Positions 531 to 5,699 of a DNA stretch of 33,910 nucleotides are shown here, piece by piece; within the stretch, counting starts at the first letter, position 1, and every line of letters starts with the position of its first letter. Both the position numbers and the translations under genes were made by a program. This DNA comes from Acidobacteriota bacterium (GTDB taxonomy: Bacteria > Acidobacteriota > Terriglobia > Acidiferrales > UBA7541): contig QHYS01000101.1 in NCBI GenBank assembly GCA_003223325.1, positions 1 through 33,910 on the forward strand, in the 5' to 3' direction. The notes beneath the pieces are model-generated. The model searched no databases, had not been told where the DNA came from, and was given only the letters and a program-made list of their open reading frames with translations.

Positions 531-2831
531 CTAGCGGCCGCGCGAGGAGCCTCCGGAAGCATGCCCGCCGGAAGAACTGCCTCCCCGAGAACCGCCTCCG
601 CCGTAACTGCCGCCACCACCGTAACTACCGCTTCCACCACCACCACGATCTCCGCCAGAGCTACCCGGGCCATATGACCGAGGCGCGGGAGCGCTTCGAT
701 AACTTGGCGCGGGATTCGAGGGATAGCTGTGATAACTCGGAGCGGAGTTATGTGGAGCCGAATAGCTCGGCGCGGAATAGGGAGAGCTACGGTAGCTTGG
801 CTCAGAGTAATTCGGAGCCGGACGATATGCCGGCGCAGCGTTGCTCCGATTCGTTCCGGCGGAGCTATCGCCGTTGTTGCGGTAAGACCGCTCGTTCACG
901 ATGGGCTTGTTCATATCCAGTGTGGGTCGGCCGCCACTGGATGGCGCACTGTACCCACGGTTTGGTGCCGTCGCAGCTCCATTCGACCTCGAGAAGCGTC
1001 GCCAAACTTCTGACGATGGTTGATTACCTCGATTCAATACACCATTCGATCCCGTGGCAGGGCTCCCGTTCGAGCGAGACTCCTGCGGCGCCGGCGATTG
1101 CCGGGCCGCGGAATGAGCGCCGTTATTTCCAAAGCGCTCCCATCCGTTAGCGCTCTGGCCCCCGGCGGCCTGCCCTTGAACGATACCGCGATTCCCCGGT
1201 GATTCAACGGGCTGCCTGCTCTGCGCCTGACCTCGCACTGCCGAAGACGAACCCGTCGCTGTCCGAATATTGTCGTTCGTGAACCGGGGCGTTCGCGAAC
1301 CATTAATGGCCCGGAACTGGGCGTTGCGCTGGATGGTTTCTTTGAGGTGCGCGGCTTGGGAAGAAAACGACTCCGCCCGCGCGGCTGGCATTCTCTTAGA
1401 GAAGAAGGTGTGTTGTGTGCTCATTCGCGAAGCAACCGCCGAATTGACCGGCCGGTCGGACGCACGCAAACTGTCATGGCTCGGCACAACCGGCAGATTG
1501 CCCGTCATCATGTGCCCGGCACGCAAATCCGAGGCGGCTACACTCCGTGCTATCCCTGTGCTGCGCCCAAAGCTTTCCGACGGAACGCCCGAGACGCCTT
1601 GGCGCACGCGTTCGTTGATCAGCATGCTGTGAAGATTCGAGAATTGATTGCCGGCATGCAGCGGAGCGATCCCATTATTGATGCTGTTGACGTTGGTGAT
1701 GTTGTTGACGTTCGTGATGTTCGTGACACTCACAACGCCAAAGTGTTCCCGAAAATCGCCCCACCAGGGATGGAAGAAATCACAGGGCCCTATGGGCAGC
1801 CAGCCAATGGAGCCGAATCCGAACCCGACGCCGAAGCCTGCGCCTCCGCCAAATCCGAAGAAGGAGACGTATGCCGGAGCCCAAATCGGCCGGTACGCCG
1901 GATAGATCGGTCCGGGCCACCAAGCCCATGATCCACCCCAGAGGAACCAACGGCCATAGTGATAGGGCGCCCAGCCCCAAGCCTCGTAGGAAACCCAAGT
2001 CCAACCCCAATACGGCTCCCAGACCCAATGACCCGCGCGATATGGCGCCCAACCGTAATCAACTTGAGGAACCCAGACCGAGCCGTAGTCGGGAACCTCG
2101 GTCCAGGTGCCGTAGGCATCAAGGTCGCCGGCCCCCGTATAGTAGTGATTTGTTTTGCGGTAAGCGGTCGCGTTGTAAACGATGTTGTCGCGATCCTTGT
2201 TCCACTTGTCCCAATCGTCAGTGTCAGGGGCCTCGGTGACTCTGTACTGCGCCTCAGTACCTGTTCCCTTCACGGTGATGAGCTGGTACTTCTTGACTGT
2301 AGTACTGCCTTCAGAAGTGGAAACTTGAGCTTCACCATCATTGACCGTTACGAGAGTGTCGCCATCGGAATTCACCTGCACCCGATAACGCCCCTCGCGA
2401 ACCGGATGAATCGAAACGTTGGGCGTGTCAATTTCGACGTCCGCCTCAGAGCCTCTGAGCATGGAGTAGTTCGCCAAGCCCTGACCAACCTGAACCTGAA
2501 TGCGGTTTCTATCGAGCGTCGCGATGCTCGCTTGGGCGTTTAGATCCAAGCGCAGGATATTCGCGTAGTCGAGCTGGAGTTCTGTTCGGGAGGCGCCCCC
2601 CGTAGCGACCTTGTCTCCGGCCACGAGCGGCGTATTCAAAGTCACTGCGGTGAAATCGCCGGAATCACCGCGCTGCATGGTGACGTCGCCGTGTATAAGG
2701 CTTACCCGGGCGACGCCGGAATCATTTTGTGCCTCAGTTTGCTCTGCACCGGGCGCTTGGGGAGCTGCCGGAATGACCGCGAAAAGCACCACAGTCCCAA
2801 TCGCCAATAGACCAACTGGGTTTGTTCTCAT
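531..2831 (-). CDS. Secreted FecR-domain / DUF6600-like protein with low-complexity tail
   Basis: 766 residues. A signal peptide (about residues 1-28) precedes a FecR-like beta-rich domain (about 40-190), here with no adjacent FecI/anti-sigma context. Residues about 215-320 carry repeated Trp/Tyr-rich units (YGSVWVP, YGWAPYRAGHW, GWTWVSYEAWGWAPY) typical of the DUF6600 family found with FecR in Acidobacteria. An Asn-rich stretch with ITNVN repeats follows. The last about 130 residues are Ser/Tyr/Pro/Gly-rich, with SAPSY-like repeats and a Gly-rich end. This suggests an exported, possibly surface-attached structural protein; the exact role is unknown. The ATG at 2831 has a good Shine-Dalgarno sequence (AGAGGTGG). 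It lies downstream of the kinase/regulator pair on the same strand, with its own sigma-54-like promoter. Confidence 0.85.
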   Translation of the reverse strand: MRTNPVGLLAIGTVVLFAVIPAAPQAPGAEQTEAQNDSGVARVSLIHGDVTMQRGDSGDFTAVTLNTPLVAGDKVATGGASRTELQLDYANILRLDLNAQASIATLDRNRIQVQVGQGLANYSMLRGSEADVEIDTPNVSIHPVREGRYRVQVNSDGDTLVTVNDGEAQVSTSEGSTTVKKYQLITVKGTGTEAQYRVTEAPDTDDWDKWNKDRDNIVYNATAYRKTNHYYTGAGDLDAYGTWTEVPDYGSVWVPQVDYGWAPYRAGHWVWEPYWGWTWVSYEAWGWAPYHYGRWFLWGGSWAWWPGPIYPAYRPIWAPAYVSFFGFGGGAGFGVGFGFGSIGWLPIGPCDFFHPWWGDFREHFGVVSVTNITNVNNITNVNSINNGIAPLHAGNQFSNLHSMLINERVRQGVSGVPSESFGRSTGIARSVAASDLRAGHMMTGNLPVVPSHDSLRASDRPVNSAVASRMSTQHTFFSKRMPAARAESFSSQAAHLKETIQRNAQFRAINGSRTPRFTNDNIRTATGSSSAVRGQAQSRQPVESPGNRGIVQGQAAGGQSANGWERFGNNGAHSAARQSPAPQESRSNGSPATGSNGVLNRGNQPSSEVWRRFSRSNGAATAPNRGYSAPSSGGRPTLDMNKPIVNERSYRNNGDSSAGTNRSNAAPAYRPAPNYSEPSYRSSPYSAPSYSAPHNSAPSYHSYPSNPAPSYRSAPAPRSYGPGSSGGDRGGGGSGSYGGGGSYGGGGSRGGSSSGGHASGGSSRGR

Positions 2832-2863
2832 GGGCCACCTCTTTCAATCTCTCAGCACAGAAA

Positions 2864-2881
2864 GGGCACGCGGCATGCCAA
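2864..2881 (-). promoter_or_regulatory. Candidate sigma-54 (-24/-12) promoter for the FecR/DUF6600 gene
   Basis: Read on the minus strand, TTGGCATGCCGCGTGCCC has the TGGCA-type -24 block and the invariant GG-N10-GC spacing of sigma-54 promoters; the -12 block (GTGC) is weaker than the consensus TTGC. Transcription would start near 2852, about 20 bases before the start codon. The neighbouring regulator has the GAFTGA motif needed to activate sigma-54. The match itself is seen; its function is inferred. Confidence 0.5.
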
Positions 2882-2978
2882 ATCGGCCAGATTCGCGAAC
2901 TTCTATTTCTTTATCTTCAGTAGCTTAGGCGGGGCGCCCTCTTCCGGGGTTCGATTGCTGTGGCCAGAATCCACCAAC

Positions 2979-2999
2979 GTGGTGGTTTTCAACCACCAC
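2979..2999. promoter_or_regulatory. Perfect inverted repeat, candidate enhancer (UAS) for the NtrC-type regulator
   Basis: GTGGTGGTT and AACCACCAC, separated by 3 bases, form a perfect 9-bp inverted repeat. It lies about 100 bp upstream of the sigma-54-like element, the normal distance for an NtrC-family enhancer. It is also 18 bases past the stop codon of the regulator, so a terminator role is possible, but no T-tract follows on the minus strand. Confidence 0.45.
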
Positions 3000-3016
3000 A
3001 CGGATGTCCGGACCCA

Positions 3017-4393
3017 TTACCCTTGCGGGGCCTTCGAGGACTCGTCGGCGATGCCGATTTTTTCGAGCCTGTAGCGCAGCGCATTGCGGGAAAGACCAAG
3101 CATGCGGGCCGCCTCGCTCTTGTTTCCATTCGCGCGGCGGTAGGCCTCGCGAATAAGCTCGTCTTCCCACTGGTCGAGCGTTTTGCCTTCAGGCAAAAGC
3201 GGCGCTTGGCCTAACTGGTTTCGGTCCGGCAGGTGGTCGATTTGGATATCGCCGGGTCCAATGAAGGAGCCCGTAGCCAGAGCGCATGCGCGCTCGACGA
3301 TGTTCTCTAACTCTCGAACATTGCCGGGCCAATGGAAAGCCATGAGCTTACGGAGAGCTTCGGGTTTGATGCCCTCCAGCTTCCTCTGGGATTTCTGCGC
3401 GAGCCGCGAAAGGAAGAGATTCGCTAGATCCGGAATGTCTTCTTTGCGCTCCCGAAGAGGCGGTATATCGATGGGCACGACATTCAACCGGTAGTAAAGA
3501 TCTTCACGAAATGTTCCTTGTTCGAGCGCCTCGCGCAGATCGCGATTGGTAGCCGCAATGAGCCGCAGATCCACTTTGATGGTGCGCGTGCCACCCAGCC
3601 TTTCAAATTCGCGTTCTTGCAGAACGCGCAGAAGCTTGACCTGTGTGGCTGCGGGAACATCTCCAATTTCATCGAGAAACAGCGTGCCCTTGTCGGCGAG
3701 CTCGAATTTTCCCGGCTTGCTCGTGGTGGCGCCGGTAAAAGCTCCTTTTTCGTAGCCGAAGAGCTCGCTTTCTAGGAGATTCTCCGGAATGGCCGTGCTA
3801 TTGATCTTCACAAATGGACCCGACGCTCGGCTGGATCGCTGATGAATCAGGTGCGCGATCAAGTCTTTTCCCACGCCACTCTCTCCGCCGATGAGCACCG
3901 TGGAAGACGTCGCCGCGACCCGCTCCCCCAGGGCCAACACCTCCTGCATCTTCGCGCTGCGGGCGACGATATTGGGGTAGCTGTAGTGGTGACCAAGCGC
4001 TTCTCGCAGGCTGCGGTTTTCCTCGCGCAGACGCCGAACGTCCAGCTCTTTTTGCACCACCAGCCGCATTTCCGCGAGCGAGAAGGGCTTGAGAACGTAG
4101 TCACTGGCCCCGGCCTTCATGGCTTCAACAGCGGTTTCGACTGAGCCGTAGGCGGTCATGACCACGACCGGCAAGGCTCCGTTGAGACGCTTGGCGGCTT
4201 GAAGGAATTCCAACCCGCCCAGGCCGGGGAGCTTTAAATCGGTGAGCACCAGATCGATCTGCTCGCGGCCCAGCAGGTCCAGACCTTTCTCGGCATCGGC
4301 AGCCGAAAATGTCTGATATCCGGCCTCGTTGAGGTCCAGCTCCAGCAAACGGCGCATCCGGGCTTCATCTTCGATGATCAGAATGGCGGCCAC
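3017..4393 (-). CDS. NtrC-family sigma-54-dependent response regulator
   Basis: 458 residues with the full three-domain layout. The receiver domain (1-120) has acidic residues E8/D9, phosphoacceptor D52 in LVLTDLKLPG, and a Lys in the LKPF motif. The AAA+ sigma-54 interaction domain (about 145-380) has Walker A GESGVGKD, the sigma-54 contact loop GAFTGA, and Walker B TLFLDEIGD. A Fis-type helix-turn-helix (about 415-450) contains NKSEAARMLGLSRNALRYRL. Start is GTG at 4393, only 4 bases after the kinase stop codon, so the two genes are co-transcribed. It should bind an enhancer and activate sigma-54 RNA polymerase when phosphorylated. The nearest plausible target is the FecR/DUF6600 gene just downstream. 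Confidence 0.95.
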   Translation of the reverse strand: MAAILIIEDEARMRRLLELDLNEAGYQTFSAADAEKGLDLLGREQIDLVLTDLKLPGLGGLEFLQAAKRLNGALPVVVMTAYGSVETAVEAMKAGASDYVLKPFSLAEMRLVVQKELDVRRLREENRSLREALGHHYSYPNIVARSAKMQEVLALGERVAATSSTVLIGGESGVGKDLIAHLIHQRSSRASGPFVKINSTAIPENLLESELFGYEKGAFTGATTSKPGKFELADKGTLFLDEIGDVPAATQVKLLRVLQEREFERLGGTRTIKVDLRLIAATNRDLREALEQGTFREDLYYRLNVVPIDIPPLRERKEDIPDLANLFLSRLAQKSQRKLEGIKPEALRKLMAFHWPGNVRELENIVERACALATGSFIGPGDIQIDHLPDRNQLGQAPLLPEGKTLDQWEDELIREAYRRANGNKSEAARMLGLSRNALRYRLEKIGIADESSKAPQG

Positions 4394-4397
4394 GCAA

Positions 4398-5699
4398 TTA
4401 AGCCTTGTATGCCGCTTCGGCTTCAGGAATTGCGGCCTGCGCCGCCAGCGGCAGGAATATCAGGAAGCAAGCGCCGGACTCTCCCCCGCTCGGCTGGCGA
4501 TCGAGAAGTTCGATAGACCCGCGATGTTCGTCCACAATTTTAGAGACGATGGAAAGCCCAAGGCCCACGCCGCTCTTTTTCGTGGTGAAAAACGGATTGA
4601 AAATTTGGTCGCGAAGCTCGGCACGGATTCCCGGCCCGGAATCCAGCACTCGCACTTCGATCCCGGGCCGCTCGCCTCGCGCGCCTAGAGCGATCGCAAT
4701 GCGCAGTCTGCCACCACTCTCGCTCATGGCATCGTATGCGTTCTGTATGAGATTGACGAAAACGTGTTCGCAAAGATTCTCATCCACGGCGGCGTTCGGC
4801 AGATCTCTTTGAAAATGGCGCTCGACTTTGATCTCCGGCCCGCTCCAATTGGCGGCCACCGCGCGGAGCGCCCGATCCACAATCTCGGAAACCGAACACG
4901 CTCGTGATTCGATACGAAGGGGGCGGGCGAAGTCTAGAAAACGGCTCACCAGAGCGCTGAGGCGATTCACTTCTGTGGAAATGTACCCTGCCAATTCAGC
5001 CACCAGCGGTTCCGCAGTTCGGACCCTGTGGTTCAGCATTTCAGCCGAACCTTTAATGATGCCCAAGGGATTGCGAATCTCATGCGCCAACCCGGCGGAA
5101 AGCTGGCCCAGGGCAGCAAGGCGTTCGGAACGGCGCGCTTCCGCCTGAGCTTGTTCGAGTTCTTGATTTGTCCTCGCGAGTTGCTCCGCGACCATCTGAT
5201 ATCGCCGGGTCTGGCGACTGTTTTCGATGGCGAACCGGTTGACCACCATGGCCGCAAGAAAAAAGAAAAGGATGCGGAGGGCCAATTCCTCCATCGCGCC
5301 CGGCGCCAGTTCATATTCCTGAAGGGCCGGCAAAAGATAAGAGCCGTAAGCGGCGGAGGCGATGAGCGTCCACGCAAGCGTTAACCATGGGTCGAAATAA
5401 ACCGCGGCGGTGACAATGGGGAGATAAAAGATCGGGTAGTAGCTGCTATTGATGCCCACATCCCCCGTATGGCTGATCAACAGCATGGCCAGCAGAATCT
5501 TTAACAGCACCGCATAGCTCTGGCCTCTCTTCGGTAGGAGCTCGACAAGCCGTCTTTCCAAAAGCTGGAAAACGCCTATCGCCAGGAGAATGATTTGCTT
5601 GTGTACCTCGCGGACTGGGGGAAGCAACGCCAGTCCCAGCAAAAATAGGAGCCAAAGCAGATCCATCCAGCCGAGCTTGCTGTGTCGCTCCGCGCTCAC
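4398..5699 (-). CDS. Membrane sensor histidine kinase
   Basis: 433 residues. The N-terminal 155 residues contain about five to six hydrophobic segments, forming a membrane-embedded sensor with no large periplasmic domain. A coiled-coil linker (about 160-195) leads to the HisKA domain with LAHEIRNPLG, phosphoacceptor H206. The ATPase domain has the N-box NLIQNAYDAM, G1 DSGPGI, F-box FNPFFTTK and G2 VGLGLSI. Start is GTG at 5699. It pairs with the sigma-54 activator immediately downstream. The signal is unknown; membrane-buried sensors of this type usually respond to membrane or cell-envelope conditions, which would fit a secreted-protein target. Confidence 0.93.
   Translation of the reverse strand: MSAERHSKLGWMDLLWLLFLLGLALLPPVREVHKQIILLAIGVFQLLERRLVELLPKRGQSYAVLLKILLAMLLISHTGDVGINSSYYPIFYLPIVTAAVYFDPWLTLAWTLIASAAYGSYLLPALQEYELAPGAMEELALRILFFFLAAMVVNRFAIENSRQTRRYQMVAEQLARTNQELEQAQAEARRSERLAALGQLSAGLAHEIRNPLGIIKGSAEMLNHRVRTAEPLVAELAGYISTEVNRLSALVSRFLDFARPLRIESRACSVSEIVDRALRAVAANWSGPEIKVERHFQRDLPNAAVDENLCEHVFVNLIQNAYDAMSESGGRLRIAIALGARGERPGIEVRVLDSGPGIRAELRDQIFNPFFTTKKSGVGLGLSIVSKIVDEHRGSIELLDRQPSGGESGACFLIFLPLAAQAAIPEAEAAYKA

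Follow-up and report, generated by a model that had tools for sequence, protein, structure and literature searches.

PEP-CTERM proteins, which are exported surface proteins, are under the sigma-54 control of PrsK/PrsR, a transmembrane kinase and an NtrC-like regulator encoded in tandem, and their genes, mostly single-gene units, have long upstream regions that carry a conserved activator motif, sometimes repeated, together with a -24/-12 element (Haft et al. 2006, PMC1569441). The dependence of a PEP-CTERM gene on RpoN has been established, with its start mapped (Xia et al. 2023, PMC9850573). At a more general level, sigma-54 has been proposed to be a controller of the bacterial exterior, with AtoC-like activators as the dominant subgroup (Francke et al. 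2011, PMC3162934). In the literature that we searched, which largely leaves out subscription journals, the term DUF6600 was not found, and no work on any sigma-54 regulon in Acidobacteria was found either. The locus described here lies in a stretch of 33,910 nucleotides from an Acidobacteriota bacterium, hereafter the window. We consider it very probable, from sequence comparison, that a membrane kinase and an NtrC-family regulator control a DUF6600 gene via a paired enhancer and a sigma-54 promoter. The DNA elements and their conservation, the intact signalling motifs, the presence of rpoN and the co-occurrence of the regulator with its sites can all be read directly from the genomes. The features of the locus are as follows.

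531-2831, minus strand: target gene, encoding a 766-aa exported protein with a signal-like N-terminus, a weak FecR match, DUF6600 and a low-complexity C-terminal half
2838-2844, minus strand: probable ribosome-binding site AAAGAGG, purine-rich, 6 nt before the ATG, read from the sequence
2865-2881, minus strand: predicted sigma-54 -24/-12 promoter TTGGCATGCCGCGTGCC, with GG at 2879-2878 and GC at 2867-2866
2901-2931, minus strand: AT-rich stretch between enhancer and promoter, from the AT content over 33 loci
2961-2976, minus strand: probable enhancer site 2, TGGTGGATTCTGGCCA, kept in the genus alignment
2979-2999, minus strand: enhancer dyad 1, candidate activator site, GTGGTGGTT-GAA-AACCACCAC, matching TGGTGGYTGAAAWCCACCA at 19/19 positions
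3017-4393, minus strand: NtrC-family response regulator, 458 aa, with a receiver, an AAA+ domain with GAFTGA and a Fis-type HTH
4398-5699, minus strand: membrane histidine kinase, 433 aa, with at least four predicted membrane segments, HisKA and HATPase

The genes are read from the minus strand in the order kinase, regulator and exported protein, with a gap of 185 bp between the last two (2832-3016). An earlier note, made from the DNA letters of this stretch, had described in this gap a GG-N10-GC element 33 bases before the start codon and a perfect 9-bp inverted repeat about 100 bp further upstream. The element is present in TTGGCATGCCGCGTGCC, where ten bases separate GG and GC, with the correction that its GC is separated by 34 nt from the ATG at 2831. 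The repeat was found as described, a perfect dyad with arms of 9 bp whose centre, at 2989, lies 110 bp 5' of the -24 GG. Site 2 is placed around 20-22 bp, or two helical turns, downstream of dyad 1. The note's GAFTGA-bearing activator and kinase were also recovered: the motif occupies residues 217-222 of the regulator, and the kinase gene is 4 nt from the regulator gene. The phospho-Asp (residue 52) and the Walker motifs of the regulator are equally intact, and the combination of a receiver, an AAA+ sigma-54 interaction domain and a Fis-type HTH places it in the NtrC family (group I). In the kinase, the domain search recognised nothing beyond a normal HisKA/HATPase core, and in particular no sensor domain; its predicted membrane segments make sensing at or within the membrane plausible. 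The genome carries a single rpoN gene, located elsewhere. The features that characterise a sigma-54 enhancer-promoter, namely a -24/-12 element, an activator site about 80-150 bp upstream, rpoN and a GAFTGA activator, are all present. No comparable promoter was found upstream of the kinase gene in the window, and there is thus no sign of autoregulation via the same site. The closest named loci, in Candidatus Sulfotelmatobacter and Acidobacteriaceae MAGs, encode regulators that are 71-76% identical. More distant regulators, 58-61% identical, occur in Bryobacterales (L037-L040, L079), with a kinase partner in L037-L040; neither DUF6600 nor the dyad was seen within the fetched flanks of these five loci.

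Relatives of the DUF6600 gene were looked for in 89 genomes from the window's family, and loci from many genera were retrieved, giving a set of 33 primary orthologues with the window included. Conservation of the two elements, on which the earlier note had staked its reading, is complete: the -24/-12 element and the dyad are both present in 33/33 loci. The match to TGGTGGYTGAAAWCCACCA reaches at least 14/19 in every locus and is situated 106-129 bp 5' of the -24 GG. In the alignment, every locus has TGG at -24 and TGC at -12, and the TGG, the central A and the right-half CC of the enhancer are likewise invariant; many loci have a degenerate outer left arm. In other genera, most loci have a second half-site, GAAA-CCACC-like, at 19-22 bp downstream of site 1, and the alignment restricted to the window's genus shows the same blocks standing out against a poorly conserved gap. 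In one orthologue (G058), the promoter is weaker, TGGCC-N7-TGCC, and the gene is split in the assembly. The AT content 20-50 bp 5' of the -24 element has a mean of 59-70%, against about 38-50% elsewhere in the 33 loci, and this AT-rich stretch may possibly form a DNA-bending site between enhancer and promoter. The kinase-regulator-DUF6600 order is kept in most loci long enough to judge, and the kinase adjoins the regulator in most complete loci; the search for this trio that the note had advised shows it recurring across many genera. The combined enhancer and promoter score of the window is 19.0, compared with a maximum of 15.2 among 1500 dinucleotide shuffles, and each of the 33 orthologous regions outscored all of its own 100 shuffles, bearing in mind that the consensus behind the enhancer half of the score was built from these very loci, so that the shuffles are not fully independent. 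A pattern search across the class is therefore the more independent evidence.

Two such patterns were used, each with its reversed form as a control. The loose pattern, a half-site plus a spaced promoter, was run over the 89 genomes, with counts taken by hand from the tables. Among the 31 regulator-positive genomes, it matched 50 times, compared with 3 for the control. The figures were close to background, at 15 and 9, in a sister genus (g2) represented by 36 genomes, where DUF6600 relatives are present and the regulator is absent. With the strict pattern, which includes both half-sites, 14 matches were obtained in 399 genomes of the class, and none with its control. Twelve of these belong to the window's family, and the other two, from two further families (G333 and G173), directly precede DUF6600 genes. 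In G333, the kinase and the regulator are also upstream of the DUF6600 gene; in G173, they were not seen in the 10 kb fetched. The promoter is absent from DUF6600 paralogues, that is, from tandem second copies and from the genes of the sister genus. In two assemblies, G061 and G063, sites are present and the regulator was not found; these assemblies are 81% and 73% complete, and incompleteness is the only explanation that we can offer for them. Within the window's own genome, the pattern-based scan returned a second candidate enhancer with one mismatch (C95:7010), which has no -24/-12 element and is thus regarded as a chance match. Other matches were located inside long open frames where checked (C300, C45), and C98:38287 was left out. 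A weak enhancer and promoter match was also observed in a non-coding region of the same genome (L290, C69:33013-33150, minus strand), the nearest downstream gene, around 0.7 kb away, being N-acetylmuramoyl-alanine amidase-like by eye.

The same switch precedes, in relatives, small Gly/Tyr-rich and Gly/Ser-rich secreted proteins. The former include a small exported family, widespread in the window's family, with the core CAYGYYxYYPYACAPYGYYGPxWFxGGVFIGAGPW (L193, L196-L199, L202-L206) and tails that are mostly Gly-rich (Gly/His-rich). The pattern also reached Gly/Ser-rich proteins (L194, L195, L201) and one small protein that is PEGA-like by eye (L207). Upstream of the CAYGYY-core relatives, the switch is found in most of the regulator-positive genomes scanned and is absent from the regulator-negative ones scanned, except for G061 and G063. 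The repeat, which the note had proposed to look for before other genes, is found before repetitive secreted proteins in relatives and not convincingly in the window's genus, where the DUF6600 promoter is the only convincing target. The note's two-component system driving one secreted low-complexity protein is supported by the conservation of the sites and the recurrence of the trio, and has to be widened as regards the number of targets, of which relatives carry more. In the window, the target matches DUF6600 (PF20245) with 80.1 bits against a curated cut-off of 27 (E 1.4e-22), and its low-complexity C-terminal half is Ser/Gly-rich. Judging by its composition, the product probably becomes part of the cell surface or matrix. 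Structure prediction for the FecR-DUF6600 part, for which three sequences were used, gave a poor model (mean pLDDT 47.8). The first DUF6600 gene often has another in tandem behind it (L117-L120, L123, L127, L129, L131, L134, L139, L272); such second copies have no sigma-54 promoter of their own in the scanned loci and may thus be read through from the first.

The inverted repeat could be read differently, as the terminator of the kinase-regulator operon, with only the -24/-12 element serving the DUF6600 gene. It lies 17 nt past the regulator stop codon and can be folded as a strong RNA hairpin; however, it is not followed by a T-run and is absent from the output of the terminator scan. In four loci (L126, L129, L141, L142), intervening opposite-strand genes put the repeat 0.6-4.9 kb away from the regulator, and the distance to the promoter is kept. 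The repeat remains with the promoter when displaced from the regulator gene, which argues for an activator site and not for a terminator. The repeat is also found before Gly/Tyr-rich genes that are remote from any regulator, and what is conserved is sequence and not pairing, as seen in the degenerate outer left arm. With the displaced loci and the missing T-run, we rejected the terminator, which we regard as very unlikely. Palindromes are a common operator shape, and the repeat might belong to an unrelated repressor or activator, the -24/-12 match being a coincidence. Such a coincidence is extremely improbable given the invariant TGG and TGC of the 33 loci, the constrained spacing to the repeat and the outcome of the promoter scan of the gap region, in which no sigma-70-type promoter was found.

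It can also be asked whether the promoter is sigma-54 dependent and the protein acting at the repeat is an enhancer-binding protein other than the neighbour, each genome of the family having from 27 to 131 first-look activator candidates. Against this stand the gene order, conserved over many genera, and the rise of the site pattern above background only where the orthologue of the neighbouring regulator occurs, so that we hold the involvement of another activator to be unlikely. As regards the target, a FecR-like domain was detected with an E of 1.9e-4, and the protein might be an anti-sigma-type signal-transducing regulator that feeds back, instead of a surface or matrix product. The score of this domain, 22.3, is nevertheless under the family cut-off of 24. 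The only strong hydrophobic segment of the protein is the N-terminal signal-like one, the remainder being FecR-like, Trp/Tyr-rich and of low complexity; no membrane-spanning anti-sigma layout was seen, and no sigma-factor gene adjoins the target in the window. The repetitive, secreted nature of the other targets is plain, and we judge a feedback role of the FecR-like protein to be highly improbable.

We therefore retain control of the DUF6600 gene by the adjacent kinase and regulator, and propose the following mechanism by analogy with the NtrC family. On a signal that is probably perceived at or within the membrane, the kinase would phosphorylate the regulator, which would bind the paired dyad sites (2961-2999) two helical turns apart. 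The DNA would then loop over the AT-rich stretch, bringing the regulator to the sigma-54 RNA polymerase at 2865-2881, and ATP hydrolysis coupled to the GAFTGA loop would open the promoter of the FecR-like/DUF6600 gene. In many relatives, the regulator would control a small regulon consisting of DUF6600 and small Gly/Tyr-rich or Gly/Ser-rich secreted proteins. These products most likely form part of the cell surface or matrix. For the DUF6600 family, to which no function has been assigned, this provides a probable regulator, a predicted binding site and a likely regulon, in an abundant bacterial class for which few genetic tools are available. As a sigma-54 promoter stays silent unless its activator is present, direct tests of the regulon and of the exported repetitive proteins are possible.

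Placed among known systems, the closest precedent is PrsK/PrsR, and the present system, as predicted, works alike yet is not a member. Both have a tandem membrane kinase and NtrC-like regulator, an activator site with a -24/-12 element, and exported products. However, the regulator scores 419 bits against the PrsR cut-off of 502.6 (TIGR02915), and the kinase 77 bits against the PrsK cut-off of 300 (TIGR02916). The candidate activator motif, a TGGTGG-CCACCA dyad, is situated 106-129 bp upstream, whereas that of the PrsK/PrsR system ends in TTTACA and lies on average 63 nt upstream. The targets are DUF6600 and Gly/Tyr-rich proteins instead of PEP-CTERM proteins; in the window protein, whose C-terminus is GGSSRGR, no PEP-CTERM signal was seen and no such family matched. 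The architecture of the regulator and the kinase core are also similar to those of AtoS/AtoC and ZraS/ZraR, AtoC being the best-scoring named family, but the regulator is under the curated cut-offs (502/714 for AtoC and 389/760 for ZraR), as is the kinase for the AtoS/ZraS-type families (203/646 and 178/479), and the N-terminal membrane part and the target differ. Exported surface products under sigma-54 are in line with the proposal of Francke et al. (2011, PMC3162934), in whose text Acidobacteria are not named. We tentatively suggest, as a serious possibility rather than a probable outcome, that this class of Acidobacteria has a system apart from PrsK/PrsR. In it, a kinase sensing the envelope or membrane would place repetitive exported matrix or coat proteins (FecR-like/DUF6600, Gly/Tyr-rich and Gly/Ser-rich) under tight sigma-54 control, and the system would be a counterpart of the PEP-CTERM regulon that evolved independently.
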